Shown in pieces: positions 36,769 to 63,955 of a DNA stretch of 64,000 nucleotides (positions are counted from its first letter, which is position 1; every line of letters begins with the position of its first letter). The notes under the pieces were generated by a model. It worked only from the letters and a program-made list of their open reading frames with translations. It did no database searches and had not been told where the DNA came from. A program made the position numbers and the translations under genes. Source of the stretch: Rhodoplanes sp. Z2-YC6860 (GTDB lineage: Bacteria > Pseudomonadota > Alphaproteobacteria > Rhizobiales > Xanthobacteraceae); assembly GCF_001579845.1 (NCBI RefSeq), contig NZ_CP007440.1, positions 6,594,029-6,658,028 of the forward strand, in the 5' to 3' direction.

Positions 36769-36866
36769 GACCGCCGCATCTAGCCCCAGCGTCGTGCGCC
36801 GACCAATCGGTTTCTGGCGCTACCCTCCGCTCTTTTTTCCTCAACCTTCTGGGCTTATATTCAGTG

Positions 36867-37183
36867 CGCCGGCGCAAGCCGGATATGGCGATAAACGGCC
36901 GTTGCAATAAACCTTTCGGACCCGGGGGCAGTACCCGGCGGCTCCACCCAAACCCGGCGGGAACGGGTTTCGGCGGGGCCGAACTAGGATCGACGAGGGT
37001 GTAAAGAGCGCGCTTTTGCCCGTTATGGTTCCGTCGTTATCGGGCCATTCCATAGTTGCCAACGACAACTATGCTCCGGTTGCTCAAGCCGCGTAATGCG
37101 GTTTGAAACACCGAACTTAAAGTCCTAACGGGTTAAGCTCCGTTAGGCGGGGTCCGGAGGCACCTGGCAACAGAAGCCTCCAC
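36867..37183 (+). ncRNA. ssrA: two-piece (circularly permuted) tmRNA
   Basis: tmRNA rescues stalled ribosomes and tags the nascent chain for proteolysis. The acceptor piece comes first and ends in the T arm CCGGG-GGCAGTA-CCCGG and the acceptor strand CGGCTCC (36939-36945) plus ACC. An intervening loop, probably removed during processing, holds a hairpin. The coding piece begins GGGGCCGAACTAGGATCGACG at 36975. The strands pair over seven bases including the G3-U identity pair. The tag frame is GCC AAC GAC AAC ... GCG TAA at 37058-37096 and reads ANDNYAPVAQAA. A hairpin CCTAACGG/CCGTTAGG and a terminal stem GGAGGC/GCCTCC followed by T runs end it. The 5' end is approximate; a TATATT box is at 36856-36861. 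Confidence 0.93.
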
Positions 37184-37332
37184 TTTCTTTTCCTTTTGCC
37201 CCTTCTGGACCCCATTCTGCCCACAGGTCCGCCTCTCCCCAACCCGCGACTCTGCCTATATTGATGGGTGTCGTCTGACGGCCGGGGGCAGAACGTTCGC
37301 TCCCGCGTTGCACCGGAGAGATTGTTCGCCTC

Positions 37333-57915: not shown

Positions 57916-60249
57916 TCATGCGTTGAGCGGTTTGGCCGATCCTCGACGAACAATCTCGACGATCTCGGCCGGCCCGACCGGGGCGATGCTGATGCGGGCT
58001 CCGAGATCGCTCAGCGCGTCCTCGATGGCTCCGACGATGGCGGCGGCTGCCGGCAGAACGCCGGATTCTCCCACACCCTTCACGCCCAGCGGATTGAGCG
58101 GCGACGGCGTGCTCCGATGGACCAGACGCACGCTGGGAACATCCGTGGACGTCGGCAGCAGGTATTCGGCGAGAGTGGTGGTGAGCGGCTGCCCTGAGGC
58201 GTCGAAGTGCATCCGTTCGAGCAGGGCGTTGCCTATGCCGTGAACCGTTCCGCCCACGACCTGACCATCGACGATCATCGGATTGATCACCCGTCCGCAG
58301 TCGTGCGCCAGGACATAATCCCGGATGGTGACGCCGCCGGTCTCGACGTCGACCTCCACCACCGCGACCGCCGTGCCGTTCGAATAGGCCATCTCGTTGA
58401 CGACGAAGGCCTCCGAGAACTCCATGCCAGGCGGAAGCCCTGCAGGAAGATACGCGCCGGCCACCCCCAACGAAGCCTTCGCCACCTCGGCAAGACCGAT
58501 CTTCAATCCGGCTGCGCCTTTCAGATGAACATCGCCGCCGCTGATCTCCAGGTCGGTCGGCGCAACCTCGAGCAGATGTCCCGCCACCGCCAGAACCTTT
58601 TCGCGGACCTTCAGCGCCGCGATATGCGCCGAGGATCCCGCCGTGACCGTCTGCCGGCTGCCGAACCCGCCGAAGCCGATCGTCGATGTCGCCGAGTCAC
58701 CGGTCGTGACGATGACATTGGACATGTCGTTGCCAAGCTGCGCTGCCGCGATCTGCGCCAGCATGGTCTTGGTGCTTTGCCCCATGGCCGCGGCGCTGGA
58801 CAGGACGTGGATCTTGCCGGACGACGTAATTTTCACCGTCGCGGGTTCAAATGGGCCCCGCCCGGTCAGTTCGACGAAGTTCGCGAGCCCGATGCCGAGA
58901 TGGCGCCCCTTCGCTCTCGCTTCCCGCTTGCGGCTCGGAAAATTCGTCCATCCGGCGACGCTCAGCGCCTCGTCCTGACAGGCATGAAGGTCGCCGGAGT
59001 CGATCACGACGGGCACGCCGGACCGCGTCTTGAAAGGCTTGGGGCATGGCATCTGCTCGCGCCGGACCAGGTTGCGCCGGCGGACGTCAGCCCGATCGAA
59101 CTTCAACTCCATCGCGACCCGATCCAGCAGCCGCTCCATCGCAAACACGCCGAGCGGCTGCCCCGCTCCTCGAACCGGAGTCACCGGCACCTTGTTGGTC
59201 AGCGCGAGCTTCACCTGCAGGGAACACGCCGGCACGTTGTAAGGCATCGTCATGGCCTGCATCGCTTCGAACGCGACGTTGACGCCCCGCGCCGTATAGG
59301 CCCCGTGATCGTGGATCATCGAGCCGCGGATGCCGAGAATTCTCGCTTCATCGTCGACCGCGATCTGAAGATCCCAGACCTGATCCCGCTCCTGCGTCGT
59401 CGAAATGAAGTGCTCGCGGCGGTCCTCGATCCACTTCACGGGGCGCCGGAGCAGAAGCGCCGCCAGCGCAACGACAAGCTCCTCGCTGTAAAACACCAGC
59501 TTGGGGCCGAAGCCTCCACCGACGTCCGGCGCGACGACTCGCACGCTCTTTTCCTCGCGTCCGAGCATATGCGCGAGCATGCGCATGGCGGCGTGCGGCG
59601 TCTGGGTCGAACTCCAGACCGTCAGCAGGTCCTGGTTGGCATCGTACGAAGCGACGACCCCGCGCCCCTCGATCGAATGGCTGCCACCGCGCGACGGCAA
59701 GAGCCTCTCGGAATAGACATGCGCCGCGCCACCGAAAGCCTCGCCGGCATTTCCAAACGTCAGATCCAGCTCGGCCACGATGTTGTGCGGCGCGCCCCGA
59801 TGGACGGTGGCCGTTCCCGGCACAACGGCGGCGACGCAGTCGACGACGGCCTCGAGGGGTTCGTATTCCACCTCGATGCAGGTCAGCGCGTCTTCTGCCT
59901 GATGACGGCTGCCGGCGATGACCACGGCCACCGGCTCGCCGACATAGACGACCTCGTCGATGGCCAGCACCGGCCGGTCCACCTGCTGACGGAATGCCTT
60001 GCTTGGCAGCGCCACAACGAGGCGCTCCTCGGTGAGGAACGGTTTGATGTCGGCAAAACTGTAGACCGCGACGACGCCGTCCATCGAGCGGGCGACGGCT
60101 GTGTCGATCCGGCGGACGAGCGCATGGCCGTGAGCGCTGCGCAGGAAACAGGCGTGCAGACTGCCTGGAAGCGCGATGTCATCGACGAAACGCCCCGCTC
60201 CGACAAGCAGAGGAGCATCTTCAAGACGCGGAATGGATTCTTCGATCAT
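57916..60249 (-). CDS. molybdopterin-dependent hydroxylase large subunit (xanthine dehydrogenase family)
   Basis: A 777-residue CoxL/XdhB-type subunit carrying the molybdenum cofactor. Visible are PRLEDAPLLVGAGRFVDDI, DEVVYVGEPVAVVIAGSRHQAEDAL, DVGGGFGPK, VRGAGQP and the C-terminal GVKGVGESGVLPAAAAIVGAIEDAL with the active-site glutamate. Enzymes of this family hydroxylate aldehydes or N-heterocycles using water. The usual FAD and 2Fe-2S subunits are not in the window, which is unusual. It follows the Bug-type gene by 49 bases on the same strand. Confidence 0.88.
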   Translation of the reverse strand: MIEESIPRLEDAPLLVGAGRFVDDIALPGSLHACFLRSAHGHALVRRIDTAVARSMDGVVAVYSFADIKPFLTEERLVVALPSKAFRQQVDRPVLAIDEVVYVGEPVAVVIAGSRHQAEDALTCIEVEYEPLEAVVDCVAAVVPGTATVHRGAPHNIVAELDLTFGNAGEAFGGAAHVYSERLLPSRGGSHSIEGRGVVASYDANQDLLTVWSSTQTPHAAMRMLAHMLGREEKSVRVVAPDVGGGFGPKLVFYSEELVVALAALLLRRPVKWIEDRREHFISTTQERDQVWDLQIAVDDEARILGIRGSMIHDHGAYTARGVNVAFEAMQAMTMPYNVPACSLQVKLALTNKVPVTPVRGAGQPLGVFAMERLLDRVAMELKFDRADVRRRNLVRREQMPCPKPFKTRSGVPVVIDSGDLHACQDEALSVAGWTNFPSRKREARAKGRHLGIGLANFVELTGRGPFEPATVKITSSGKIHVLSSAAAMGQSTKTMLAQIAAAQLGNDMSNVIVTTGDSATSTIGFGGFGSRQTVTAGSSAHIAALKVREKVLAVAGHLLEVAPTDLEISGGDVHLKGAAGLKIGLAEVAKASLGVAGAYLPAGLPPGMEFSEAFVVNEMAYSNGTAVAVVEVDVETGGVTIRDYVLAHDCGRVINPMIVDGQVVGGTVHGIGNALLERMHFDASGQPLTTTLAEYLLPTSTDVPSVRLVHRSTPSPLNPLGVKGVGESGVLPAAAAIVGAIEDALSDLGARISIAPVGPAEIVEIVRRGSAKPLNA

Positions 60250-60298
60250 TCAAGGACGACAAGCAGTGAGCCTCTGACTTCAGACCAGGGTGTGCGTC

Positions 60299-61261
60299 TT
60301 ATTTGCCGGATAGGCCTGCGGCATCCACCGCTGCTTTGGCCAATGGCAGGTCCGCTTGGATTGCGGCCGCGAGTTCGCCAGGGCTGCTACCGATACATTC
60401 CGCACCCATTCCTGTGATCAAGTCGATGACCTCCTGCTCACGGCACACATCCGACACGGCTTTCGACAATTTGTCGATGATGCCCGCGGGCGTTCCGGTC
60501 GGAGTGAAATACCCCACCCAGCTTGTGAAGGTGAAGTCCCTCTGCTCTTCAACGAAGGTCGGGGTATCGGGAAACAAGGCGAGCCGCTTGCTGGAGGATA
60601 CGGCGAGCAATCTGACCTTCTTCGATCGCACCTGCTCGACCAGATCGACCATGTTTCCGAAGTACATCTGCACTTCGCCAGTCATCACGCCCAACATCGA
60701 CGCCGGGACCGTCGGATACGGCACCATCACGAGATCCAGCTTCTCCCTCGACGCCCATAAGGCCGCGGCCAGATGCGTGCTTTGGCCCGTTCCTGAGATG
60801 CCATAGTTGATCTTGCCGGGCCGCGCCTTCGCATAGGCGACGAACTCGGACAGGTTCTTTACCGGCAAGGTGGGCGGCACGACCAGTCCCAGACCGTTCA
60901 TGACGAACATGCTGATCGGAGCCAGGCCCGTGACAGGGTCATAAGGCAGCTTCTTGATCAGAGGCGCGCTCGTGAACTGAGCGCCGCCTCCAAACCATAA
61001 CGTGTATCCGTCGGGAGCCGATCGGGTGACGTACTCGGTGCCGATGAGACCACCCGCGCCGGCGCGGTTCTCCACGACGAAAGGCTTGCCGAACATACGC
61101 GCCAGCCGGTCGGTCGTGACGCGCGCCATGACGTCGGTGTATCCGCCCGGTCCCACCGGGGCGACAACCTTGACGGCTCGGTTCGGCCAGTCGCCCGCAC
61201 TCGATTCGCCAGCCAAGAAGAGCGACAAGCAGACGACAGCAACGTGCAGCTTCAACCCCAT
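60299..61261 (-). CDS. Bug/TctC-type substrate-binding protein
   Basis: A 320-residue periplasmic protein with signal peptide (MGLKLHVAVVCLSLFLAGESSA) and DWPNRAVKVVAPVGPGGYTDVMARVTTDRLARMFGKPFVVENRAGAGGLIG, the Bug family core. LPYDPVTGLAPISMFVMN and KINYGISGTGQSTHLAAALW follow. The ATG at 61261 has GAGG eight bases upstream; the frame further up is not coding. No TctA/TctB partner is here. It likely binds a carboxylate handled by the neighbouring enzymes. Confidence 0.9.
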   Translation of the reverse strand: MGLKLHVAVVCLSLFLAGESSAGDWPNRAVKVVAPVGPGGYTDVMARVTTDRLARMFGKPFVVENRAGAGGLIGTEYVTRSAPDGYTLWFGGGAQFTSAPLIKKLPYDPVTGLAPISMFVMNGLGLVVPPTLPVKNLSEFVAYAKARPGKINYGISGTGQSTHLAAALWASREKLDLVMVPYPTVPASMLGVMTGEVQMYFGNMVDLVEQVRSKKVRLLAVSSSKRLALFPDTPTFVEEQRDFTFTSWVGYFTPTGTPAGIIDKLSKAVSDVCREQEVIDLITGMGAECIGSSPGELAAAIQADLPLAKAAVDAAGLSGK

Positions 61262-61379
61262 CGCGTGCACCTCATCAGGATTTCCTCTCCTGGGCAGCGT
61301 CTTGGGCAGCGTCTTGCGATCGGAGATTTCCCCTGCCGGATTCGGGCAAAACCTCGAAGCGATGCCAAACGCTGTCAAT

Positions 61380-61389
61380 GAAACGTTTC
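61380..61389. promoter_or_regulatory. palindrome between the divergent genes
   Basis: GAAACGTTTC is a perfect 10-bp palindrome 119 bases upstream of the Bug-type gene and before the GntR gene. It resembles half-sites of LacI-type operators, but no such regulator is present. Chance cannot be excluded. Confidence 0.3.
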
Positions 61390-61450
61390 CAGGACACAGA
61401 CTCAAGCCGGCACGAAATTCTATTTTTGCCGCCCATGCCAAGTCAACAGG

Positions 61451-61462
61451 TCGATATAACAA
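61451..61462. promoter_or_regulatory. candidate GntR operator (site 1)
   Basis: TCGATATAACAA matches the palindrome TTGATATATCAA found before ubiD at 10 of 12 positions and lies in the divergent promoter region 66 bases before the GntR start, as expected for an autoregulated operator. Confidence 0.45.
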
Positions 61463-61527
61463 GTTGCGGCTTGTGTTTCCCGGCCGGAGGCTTCATCAGA
61501 ATGCCGTTTGCAGGGAACGAAGCGACG

Positions 61528-62313
61528 ATGAAGAAAAGGCAGGCACCCGGAAAAACGTCTGCTGCGGCGGCGCAATCGCGACTGACCGACATGTCGGTGG
61601 ACGCGACCTCACCCACTCCGCTGTACCATCAAATCTTCGAGCAGTTGCGGAACGCCGTTTTGGCCGGCGACTTCGCGGACCAGGGCTACCTGCCCAGCGA
61701 ACAGGAAATTTCCCAACGGTTCGGAGTTTCGAGGATCACGGCCAAACGGTCGCTCGACGAAATGGCCACCGCGGGTTTGGCGGTTCGCGAGCAAGGCCGC
61801 GGCACACGCGTCAACAGCGCCCCCGGCCGAACGATGGTGAGAGGCGGCATCTCCAGCCTAGTGCAGAGTCTGCACGCTAACGCACGGCATTCCGTGAAGC
61901 TGATCGATTTCGGATATGTCCATCCGTCTGCCGAGATTGCGGATATTCTGGGAATCGACCGGAAGGCCGAAGTTCAGCGCGCCATCAGGGTTTGGAACGG
62001 ACCGAACGGGCCGTTCTCGCATCTGACGACCTTTGTCCCCGCCGAGATCGGCCGGAGATGGACGAAGAGCGACCTGCAATCGAAGCCCTTGATTTCGCTG
62101 TTGGAGAGCGGCGGCGTTCGAGTCGGCAGAGCCCAGGAGCAGATTACGGCCACCCTTGCCGACCGCGACACCTCGGAGCGCCTCCTGGTCAAGCGGGGCG
62201 AGCCGCTTCTGATGATCGTGCGCACGGTGTTCGATCTGGAAGGCACGGCCGTGGAGCACATCATCGCGCTCTATCCTCCGTCCCGGTACCAATATCTCGT
62301 AAGCCTCGAATAA
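61528..62313 (+). CDS. GntR-family transcriptional regulator (UTRA effector domain)
   Basis: A 261-residue regulator: wHTH TPLYHQIFEQLRNAVLAGDFADQGYLPSEQEISQRFGVSRITAKRSLDEMATAGLAVREQGRGTRV, then the UTRA ligand-binding domain (VQRAIRVWNGPNGPFSHLTTFVPAEIGRRW, LISLLESGGVRVGRAQEQITATLADRDTSERLL) ending YPPSRYQYLVSLE. It is the HutC subfamily, which usually represses catabolic genes until the substrate binds. It lies between divergent catabolic genes. The start at 61528 is likely; others are upstream. Confidence 0.9.
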   Translation: MKKRQAPGKTSAAAAQSRLTDMSVDATSPTPLYHQIFEQLRNAVLAGDFADQGYLPSEQEISQRFGVSRITAKRSLDEMATAGLAVREQGRGTRVNSAPGRTMVRGGISSLVQSLHANARHSVKLIDFGYVHPSAEIADILGIDRKAEVQRAIRVWNGPNGPFSHLTTFVPAEIGRRWTKSDLQSKPLISLLESGGVRVGRAQEQITATLADRDTSERLLVKRGEPLLMIVRTVFDLEGTAVEHIIALYPPSRYQYLVSLE

Positions 62314-62364
62314 CGGTCCTCGCCCCCTGGCGGGAGCATCGAGGCGATTGCCTGCTGCGCCTAG

Positions 62365-62376
62365 TTGATATATCAA
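62365..62376. promoter_or_regulatory. candidate GntR operator (site 2) before ubiD
   Basis: A perfect 12-bp palindrome TTGATATATCAA 52 bases before the ubiD-like start. It is A+T-rich in a G+C-rich region, and a 10/12 match occurs before the GntR gene, so a shared operator is plausible. Confidence 0.55.
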
Positions 62377-62428
62377 CATATCAGATCGCCCCCCGGCGGG
62401 GCCGCACAGACAATCAGGGAGAAATCGA

Positions 62429-63955
62429 ATGGCTGCCAGGATCAAGGTCGAGGATGCGATGTCCGCCGGGAAAGCGTCCGTGTCAGAGCCGGCGAAGCCA
62501 GCCGCTGAAGCGGCGCCCAAGCTCCCGTACACCGATCTCCGCGAATGGATGGATGAAGCCAGGAAGCTCGGCGAATTGAAGGAGGTCGAAGGGCTTTCCT
62601 GGGAGCGGGAAATCGGGCTCTGCGCCGAGGTCGTGCAGAAGGAGGAGAAGTCTCCCTGCGTCGTCTTCACGAAGATCCCCGGATCGCTTCCCGGCAGCAG
62701 GGTGCTGACGAACTTCTTTGCCGGCCGCCGGATGAACATGACGCTCGGTCTTCCGCTCCACCTTTCCAAGCTGGAGCTCACCGAGGGCATGCGCCGTCAT
62801 TACATGACGGACCTCAAGCGGATTCCGGTCGAATACGTCGAGGACGGCCCCGTGTTCGAAAACACGATGCAAGGCGACGACATCGACGTCACGAAATTCC
62901 CGTCGCCGATCTGGCACAAGCACGACGGCGGCCGTTACATCGGAACGGGCGCCTACCTGGTCACCCGCGATCCCGACGAAGGCTGGGTGAACTGCGGCGT
63001 CTATCGGGTGATGGTCCAGGACAAGAAGTCGGTCGGCTTCTACATCTCTCCCGGCAAGCACGGCCATATCCAGATGATGAAGTACGAGGCCCGCAAGGAG
63101 CCCATGCCGGTTGTCATCGTGGTCGGCGGCGACCCGATGTCCTACATGATGGCGGGAATCGAGGTGCCTTACGGAACGTCCGAGTTCGAAGTGATCGGCG
63201 GCATCCGCGGCAAGGCCTATCAGATGGTGAAGGGTCCGATGACGGGACTGCCCTTCCCCGCCAATGCCGAGATCGTCATCGAAGGATTTCTCCAGCCGGG
63301 CAACCGCAAGCTCGAAGGGCCGTTCGCGGAGTGGACGGGCTACTACAGCACGCACGACAGCGAAGAGCCGCTGCTCGACATCAAAGCCATCCACTATCGG
63401 AACGACCCGATCATCCTGGGTTGCCCGCACCAGATGCCGCCCGACGAGAGCATGCGCTATCTCTCGGTCGTCCGTTCATCTCTGCTGCGCGAGAACATCA
63501 CCAAGGCCGGCGTGCCGGACGTCACAGGCGCCTGGATGCATGAAGTCGGAGGCGGACGCTTCCTCGTCGGTGTCTCGATCAAGCAACGCTATGGCGGACA
63601 TGCGAGGCAAGCGGGGCACGTCGCGTGCCAATGCCACCTCGCGGCCTACTCAGGGCGCTACGTCATCGTCACCGACGACGACATCGACGTTTCCAATCTC
63701 GAGGAACTCATCTGGGCGATGTGCACCCGGTCCGATCCGGCGACATCCATCGACATCATCACCAACGCGTGGAGCACACCGCTCGACCCGCGGATCGACC
63801 CGCAGCGCAGGGCCCTCAAGGATTTCACCAACAGCCGCGCCATCATCGATGCCTGCCGTCCGTGGCATTGGCGGGATTCGTATCCGAAAATGATCACCGG
63901 CACGGTCGAGGAACGTCGCGAAAACCGCAAACGCTTCGAGTACCTGCTCAAATAG
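62429..63955 (+). CDS. UbiD-family decarboxylase
   Basis: A 508-residue prenylated-FMN decarboxylase homolog. Visible: LREWMDEARKLGELKEVEGLSWEREIGLCAEVV, RIPVEYVEDGPVFENTMQGDDIDVTKFPSPIWHKHDGGRYIGTGAYLVTRDPDEGWVNCGVYRVMVQDKK and the core KLEGPFAEWTGYYS with the catalytic glutamates of UbiD enzymes. Such enzymes reversibly (de)carboxylate aromatic or alpha,beta-unsaturated acids. The cofactor maker UbiX is not in the window. A GGGAGAAATCGA site precedes the ATG. The stop at 63955 leaves 45 bases to the window end. Confidence 0.92.
   Translation: MAARIKVEDAMSAGKASVSEPAKPAAEAAPKLPYTDLREWMDEARKLGELKEVEGLSWEREIGLCAEVVQKEEKSPCVVFTKIPGSLPGSRVLTNFFAGRRMNMTLGLPLHLSKLELTEGMRRHYMTDLKRIPVEYVEDGPVFENTMQGDDIDVTKFPSPIWHKHDGGRYIGTGAYLVTRDPDEGWVNCGVYRVMVQDKKSVGFYISPGKHGHIQMMKYEARKEPMPVVIVVGGDPMSYMMAGIEVPYGTSEFEVIGGIRGKAYQMVKGPMTGLPFPANAEIVIEGFLQPGNRKLEGPFAEWTGYYSTHDSEEPLLDIKAIHYRNDPIILGCPHQMPPDESMRYLSVVRSSLLRENITKAGVPDVTGAWMHEVGGGRFLVGVSIKQRYGGHARQAGHVACQCHLAAYSGRYVIVTDDDIDVSNLEELIWAMCTRSDPATSIDIITNAWSTPLDPRIDPQRRALKDFTNSRAIIDACRPWHWRDSYPKMITGTVEERRENRKRFEYLLK

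Follow-up and report, generated by a model that had tools for sequence, protein, structure and literature searches.

Xanthine-oxidase-family molybdenum (Mo) hydroxylases are treated as heterotrimers encoded in one operon. In furan catabolism such an enzyme works in one pathway with a UbiD decarboxylase, HmfF; the hydroxylase, HmfABC (2-furoyl-CoA dehydrogenase), has its three subunits encoded together, and its substrate is known. A locus of Rhodoplanes sp. Z2-YC6860 may likewise join a UbiD-family (de)carboxylase and a xanthine-oxidase-family enzyme in one ring-acid pathway. It differs from the furan system in that only the large subunit is local and that no CoA ligase was seen next to the locus. 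It comprises the genes for the Mo large subunit (P0001), a TctC/Bug periplasmic binding protein (P0002), a GntR/UTRA regulator (P0003) and the UbiD protein (P0004), and lies in the 64,000-nucleotide window analysed here (NZ_CP007440.1, positions 6,594,029 to 6,658,028). The host replicon is one contig of 8,193,889 bp, and the genome is closed.

An earlier note on this DNA described these four genes as two divergent units and called the Mo subunit lone. All four are present as open frames with the expected Pfam domains. According to the gene calls, which were made with our own codon-usage caller, tctC and the Mo large subunit run leftward in this order on one strand with a 49-bp gap, and gntR and ubiD, in this order, run rightward. 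The term "lone" holds genome-wide; no Fer2_2 (CoxS) gene lies closer than 210 kb. It is proposed, with a probability of about 0.48, that the locus is a locally regulated ring-acid module in which P0001 borrows detached coxM-coxS products and the GntR-UTRA regulator controls both units. That large and small subunits are encoded apart, both in this one-contig genome and across the genus, is a more interesting point than the catabolic role. The arrangement is a variant within a known enzyme family and does not amount to a new kind of system. In the open-licence literature, nothing on point about such an arrangement was found.

The large subunit and its detached partners in the host genome

The genome contains 39 full-length XdhA-type large subunits, 24 UbiD genes and 37 Fer2_2 (CoxS) genes; the 37 were recovered again with a CoxS protein as the query. 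Twenty of the 39 large subunits are more than 8 kb from any Fer2_2 gene, measured from gene midpoints, and 15 of these are more than 20 kb from one. Five P0001-like large subunits (6.65, 7.52, 1.16, 1.08 and 7.95 Mb) are without coxS within 8 kb. They show 47-100% identity to P0001, and the next large subunit shows 39%. Missing subunits are not hidden beyond the window edge, as none appeared on reading on to 6,670,900. The earlier note would have been undermined if the Mo subunit belonged to a complete operon elsewhere. No operon joining a P0001-like large subunit with coxM-coxS was found in the host genome, but small-subunit genes of the matching clade do exist, detached.

Judged from its sequence, P0001 is a CoxL/XdhA-type large subunit of a xanthine-oxidase-family Mo hydroxylase. 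It carries the motifs GGGFG, RGAGQ and GVGES, the last with a putative catalytic Glu728 that corresponds to the active-site Glu of the GxGE region. It retains 98 of the 99 columns that are near-invariant across 37 large subunits with coxS nearby, Glu728 included (leave-one-out range of the same score for the 37 subunits, 0.83-1.0; L060, a shortened call, was left out of this reference set). Because these columns are kept, P0001 appears not to be decayed. Its closest solved relatives, both over the full length, are the large subunits of quinoline 2-oxidoreductase (1t3q_B, the best PDB sequence match) and 6-hydroxypseudooxynicotine dehydrogenase (7dqx_A). This likeness is at the family level only, and P0001 differs in having no adjacent small subunits, but it hints at N-heterocycles. 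P0001 is not a Form I aerobic CO dehydrogenase: RGAGQ at residue 360 replaces (A/S)YRCS(F/L)R, the active-site motif defining that form (PMC13240472), and the NCBIfam CO dehydrogenase models score below their cut-offs.

In the large-subunit tree (58 of the 142 collected sequences, namely those scoring 700 bits or more against P0001 together with chosen outgroups), P0001 falls in a clade of 14 rows with support 100. The label coxS-nearby was given below 6.5 kb, and the label lone only where 4-kb flanks are known on both sides; P0001, whose locus starts 944 bp away, was labelled lone by hand. Among the 13 other members, eight directly adjoin coxS (L154, L047, L048, L050, L051, L155, L156 and L157). 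In the remaining five (L158, L159, L160, L162 and L194), coxS lies 1.2-6.3 kb away, outside their own operon and beside another large subunit. The sister of P0001 (66-67% identity, support 100) is the subunit of L154, which is encoded in a coxM-coxS-coxL operon of a different genus in the family.

CoxM and CoxS trees were built from genes of at least 240 and at least 140 aa (<420) in 43 chosen loci, most of them fetched for likeness to P0001 or located in the host genome; identical proteins were used once. In the CoxM tree (42 genes), two host copies, at 7.535 Mb and 3.17 Mb, belong to an 18-row clade (support 96). Each of the other 16 rows is adjacent to a P0001-like large subunit (743-1153 bits to P0001), whereas the two host copies are not. 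Both also fall inside a nine-row subset (support 95) of P0001's own relatives. They are 99.0% identical to each other, and their DNA is 89.8% identical over 1,408 bp. Two CoxM outside the 18-row clade, from L156 and L157, likewise have a P0001-like subunit no more than 1.5 kb away. The CoxS tree agrees on the nearest relatives with weaker support.

The coxM-coxS pair at 7.535 Mb has no large subunit directly beside it, and the 3.17 Mb pair has as its neighbour a distant large subunit (37% to P0001) in convergent orientation. The 3.17 Mb cluster is the counterpart of L154: besides CoxS (65%) and CoxM (60%), six further genes are 56-89% identical, two of them cut by the locus end, and the shared families are zinc-type dehydrogenase, LacI, HpcH/HpaI, MaoC-like, CoA-transferase III and AMP-binding. 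The sister's cluster is therefore present here without its kind of large subunit. The host large subunit most like that of L154 is P0001, 3.5 Mb away from the 3.17 Mb cluster and beside tctC, gntR and ubiD. This CoA-type cluster, seen in L154 and L196, is common to two genera, and the large subunit beside coxM-coxS differs between them.

Candidate operators and the proposed module

The earlier note's two units share a candidate operator in both control gaps, in agreement with shared regulation (Table 1). A perfect 14-bp palindrome, GTTGATATATCAAC, stands between gntR and ubiD, and a copy with three mismatches, GTCGATATAACAAG, stands in the divergent gap. No other site in the 64 kb has three or fewer mismatches, and each control gap has one of the two. 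In shuffled sequences the mean was 0.54, and 9 of 100 shuffles had two or more. Six sites with three or fewer mismatches occur in ~0.6 Mb of the host genome outside the window; on this basis the chance of one in the 0.27-kb divergent gap is ~0.003, a value that is too low if gaps are more AT-rich than genes. The window has nine perfect 14-bp palindromes, of which the one between gntR and ubiD is the only AT-rich one. With a pattern written to cover both sites, the genome scan gave one further place with one mismatch, and places with two mismatches were at the control level. The site in the divergent gap is just upstream of the region's only sigma-70-like promoter match (61446-61417, minus strand; 10/12), itself a weak match (1 found, 1.2 in shuffles). 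GTMTAKAC, the HutC-type operator, is absent from both gaps, and the different palindrome is there instead. The palindrome and its copy suggest one regulon, and the gene set is probably self-regulated.

Table 1. Genes and candidate operators of the locus, and a tmRNA gene elsewhere in the window (last row), with positions in the window
Feature	Position	Strand	Description
Mo large subunit P0001	57916-60249	-	777 aa; Ald_Xan_dh_C + MoCoBD_1 + MoCoBD_2 (Pfam, above cut-offs)
TctC/Bug periplasmic binding protein P0002	60299-61261; alternative GTG start 61270	-	320-323 aa; Pfam TctC, E 1.1e-58
GntR/UTRA (HutC-like) regulator P0003	61591-62313; alternative start 61528	+	Pfam GntR + UTRA above cut-off
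UbiD-family (de)carboxylase P0004	62429-63955	+	508 aa; UbiD_N + UbiD + UbiD_C (Pfam, above cut-offs)
Candidate operator 1, GTCGATATAACAAG	61450-61463		Divergent gap; 3 mismatches to the palindrome at 62364
Candidate operator 2, GTTGATATATCAAC	62364-62377		Perfect 14-bp palindrome between gntR and ubiD
tmRNA gene	36854-37187		ARAGORN

The UbiD protein is also intact. Arg193 (in NCGVYR) and Glu296 and Glu301 (in EGPFAE) stand at the positions of the catalytic E-R-E motif, by correspondence with residues of Fdc1. The best PDB sequence match is 7pda_A; PA0254 aromatic acid decarboxylase (4ip2) and the UbiD-like 7abn are also near-full-length matches. The likeness to solved UbiD proteins is modest (338 and 183 bits), so that no substrate can be transferred. 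Beside another host UbiD, a 195-aa Flavoprotein-family protein (L029:9157-9744) is encoded, which may be a UbiX that supplies prenylated flavin mononucleotide (FMN).

The TctC protein says little, because it is one of ~434 in the genome (PMC5994714); 45 were called in 614 kb of fetched, catabolism-biased host stretches. No tctA or tctB is directly beside tctC, whose direct neighbours are the Mo subunit and gntR; genes farther out were judged only by eye. Sub-micromolar affinity for quinolinate is known from two Bordetella Bug proteins (PMC11452294), so that a TctC protein can bind a pyridine acid.

In the proposed mechanism, TctC, or another of the many binding proteins, would capture a (hetero)aromatic carboxylic acid. 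UbiD would remove its carboxyl group with prenylated FMN, and the Mo subunit would hydroxylate a ring carbon, or oxidise a related C-H, before or after decarboxylation. P0001 would not work alone, but would borrow the flavin adenine dinucleotide (FAD) subunit CoxM and the 2[2Fe-2S] subunit CoxS from the detached pairs at 7.535 Mb, a distance of ~0.9 Mb, and at 3.17 Mb, a distance of 3.5 Mb. These pairs may be shared by several large subunits. GntR-UTRA would act on both units through two related sites and would probably repress them until an intermediate releases it. The genes with their intact motifs, the detachment, the subunit phylogeny and the candidate operators are seen in the sequences; the assembly with borrowed subunits, the regulation, the substrate class and the reaction order are what we infer here.

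It is thus plausible, as the earlier note had supposed, that a (hetero)aromatic acid is taken up, hydroxylated on the ring and decarboxylated. This function is favoured because of the E-R-E residues of UbiD, the N-heterocycle hint of the large-subunit matches and the Bug-quinolinate precedent. The divergent units, the intact enzymes, the shared candidate operator and the linkage of UbiD with Mo subunits speak for this role; the exact set was not found elsewhere in the flanks seen, and TctC says little. No substrate can be named from the relatives, because their gene contexts differ: they are CoA-type in L154 and L196 and, as judged by eye, amidase/pyrimidine-type around L048, and an AMP-binding enzyme stands beside UbiD in L034.

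Linkage, conservation and alternative explanations

In the host genome, an XdhA-type large subunit is found within 8 kb of 7 of the 24 UbiD genes, while 1.7 are expected; 2 of 5000 random placements were as high. The proximity is also above chance at 5 kb (5 of 24 versus 1.1; 26/5000) and 12 kb (8 of 24 versus 2.5; 11/5000). A paralogous set of UbiD (55%), TctC and a lone Mo subunit (48%) is kept in three genomes (L022, L070 and L190), with UbiD 87-92% and the Mo subunit 76-91% identical to L022. Near the P0001-like large subunits (56-59%) of L048, L155, L157 and L159 there is also a UbiD of 40-43% identity. Conservation was searched in 391 family genomes, where only the three best UbiD and the two best large-subunit candidates per genome were scored. 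UbiD was found at E 1e-200 or better in 15 of them and the large subunit at E 1e-240 or better in 26, the host included in both.

The four genes could be chance neighbours, with the tctC-Mo unit and gntR-ubiD serving separate functions in a gene-crowded genome. The numbers of UbiD, XdhA-type and TctC genes given above favour this explanation. So does the comparison of neighbourhoods that the earlier note had asked for: the exact four genes were not found in the flanks of the 14 other UbiD genomes (60-66% identity), of which mostly ~1.5 kb per side was seen, nor in the fetched flanks of large-subunit relatives. Those UbiD relatives sit with an AMP-binding enzyme, a UbiX-like flavoprotein, DUF5996 or TctC instead of a Mo subunit. 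However, the related sites in both control gaps, the proximity of UbiD and Mo subunits at 5, 8 and 12 kb and the paralogous cluster conserved in three genomes argue against chance, and it is considered rather unlikely. It is distinctly improbable that the Mo subunit works without CoxM-CoxS and passes electrons to another protein. The many XdhA-type subunits without a Fer2_2 gene within 8 or 20 kb would fit such an enzyme, as would lone large subunits recurring in clades of other genomes. Against it, P0001 keeps the near-invariant columns of subunits with coxS nearby, and all other members of its 14-row clade have coxS in the locus. In addition, no recurrent redox partner is found beside P0001-like subunits in 20 loci, four of them with coxS within 6 kb, whose neighbours were mostly not domain-searched; the commonest direct neighbours are TctC (6), a crotonase-like family (3, by eye) and three families at two each, including a second large subunit. 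Even less probable is a stranded, non-functional leftover after partner loss. P0001 has no adjacent partners and nothing above 52% identity elsewhere in the genus at E 1e-245 or better, as a leftover might, but its open frame, its putative catalytic Glu728 and its 98 of 99 columns are preserved, and the genome still encodes small subunits of the matching clade.

Several observations weigh against a borrowed-subunit ring-acid module. The closest relatives of the host CoxM and CoxS are in L047, L048, L050 and L051 (CoxM 61-68%, CoxS 77-84%), and the identity to CoxM and CoxS of L154, the locus of P0001's sister, is only 58% and 64%. The CoxM tree leans on loci chosen for P0001 likeness, and coxM relatives without an adjacent large subunit that were found later are not in it. 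A P0001-like subunit (49%) at 7.523 Mb, ~10 kb from the 7.535 Mb pair, may be the real partner of that pair. The genome-wide pattern scan lists no operator-like site just upstream of either coxM-coxS pair, and control of these pairs by the same regulator was rejected. TctC within 300 bp on the same strand is only mildly enriched, at 6 of the 36 large subunits whose loci were fetched versus 39 of 473 other genes, and its adjacency was not taken as strong evidence. The proximity of UbiD and Mo subunits is weak at 3 kb (2 of 24 versus 0.66; 689/5000), and random placement ignores the clustering of catabolic genes. The absence of the exact four-gene set from the flanks seen counts on the same side. 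In the family, G207, G215, G146 and G020 have P0001-like subunits with no coxM of the matching clade at E 1e-80; in these genomes, coxS of another type lies in the P0001-like locus. These four genomes break any strict requirement of P0001-like subunits for this CoxM clade.

Detached subunits across the genus and family

The detached arrangement is found throughout the genus. In 9 of 10 other genus genomes (with the host, 10 of 11), coxM is 76-87% identical to the 7.535 Mb copy. The only genome without a close match is G003, which is 79% complete. In another genus, G018 and G086 have coxM at 72%. Twelve contexts were fetched (nine from the genus, G018, G086 and G150), and the gene after coxM-coxS is never a large subunit. 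One coxM, in L235, was missed by the gene caller and located by a separate search. UbiD is on the same stretch in 10 of the 12 contexts, and in nine it is an ortholog of the UbiD at 7.54 Mb (73-94% identity). In L233, L235 and L236, coxM-coxS has a P0001-like large subunit (81-83% identical to that at 7.523 Mb) at a distance of 1-7 kb, outside its operon.

One redox module serving several catalytic subunits is an economical reading of these sequences. The genus may run a modular system, in which one conserved detached coxM-coxS pair, duplicated in the host, would serve several interchangeable, scattered large subunits, each belonging to a separate substrate-specific regulon that also includes binding proteins or UbiD; the specificity subunits would expand and the shared machinery would not. 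This wider proposal is tentative, and we hold it at somewhat less than even odds. A similar expansion of specificity subunits without shared machinery has already been proposed for orphan TctC of Rhodoplanes sp. Z2-YC6860 (PMC5994714). There, specificity proteins of the tripartite tricarboxylate transporter (TTT) type outnumber their membrane partners, as lone Mo subunits outnumber detached small subunits here. The orphan TctC proteins differ in belonging to another protein family, and the terms "UbiD", "molybd" and "xanthine" are absent from the main text of that report. In a marine CO dehydrogenase survey, coxL-only loci likewise have a large subunit without coxM-coxS beside it; they are attributed by the authors to incomplete genome recovery, whereas the host genome here is one contig (PMC13240472). 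A single-contig genome in which about half of the large subunits are lone (20/39), with detached small subunits of the matching clade whose relatives occur genus-wide, is what gives the case its weight. If large subunits are swappable on a common redox module, then annotation, heterologous expression and the prediction of ring-acid pathways would all change.

Further loci deserve mention. L195 and L230-L240 (G000 7.523-7.550 Mb) combine detached coxM-coxS, UbiD (73-94%, nine contexts) and a second Mo hydroxylase whose coxS and coxM lie apart; this looks like a core catabolic locus of the genus. In L022:1835-12858 (G000 1.150-1.161 Mb), UbiD, TctC genes and a lone Mo subunit stand beside a Rieske/VanA-type oxygenase and a glyoxalase-fold protein. 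In L048 and L155, a P0001-like coxMSL operon and UbiD are near amidase-, CoxG- and dihydroorotate-dehydrogenase-like genes, with names judged from sequence; a pyrimidine-type substrate is possible for them. L047, from a record titled as a Bordetella parapertussis metagenome-assembled genome, has a coxMSL operon with a large subunit 61% identical to P0001, and its organism label may be wrong. In L064, L067, L068 and L071 (Paraburkholderia and Caballeronia records), two homologues distantly related to UbiD (94-115 bits to P0004) come after coxM-coxS-coxL.

A DUF5996 protein (L034:3017-3967) is encoded directly after a UbiD that is 64% identical to P0004. A similar protein occurs in L036, and similar-sized genes occur in L035 and L040; it is possibly a functional partner. 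Past the window end (64000), a DctP-type binding protein and then a TctC are encoded, both convergent to ubiD. In L030, L159, L180 and L193, a P0001-like large subunit stands beside or near a second, distant one (35-38% to P0001 where computed), and a mixed enzyme of the two large subunits is conceivable.

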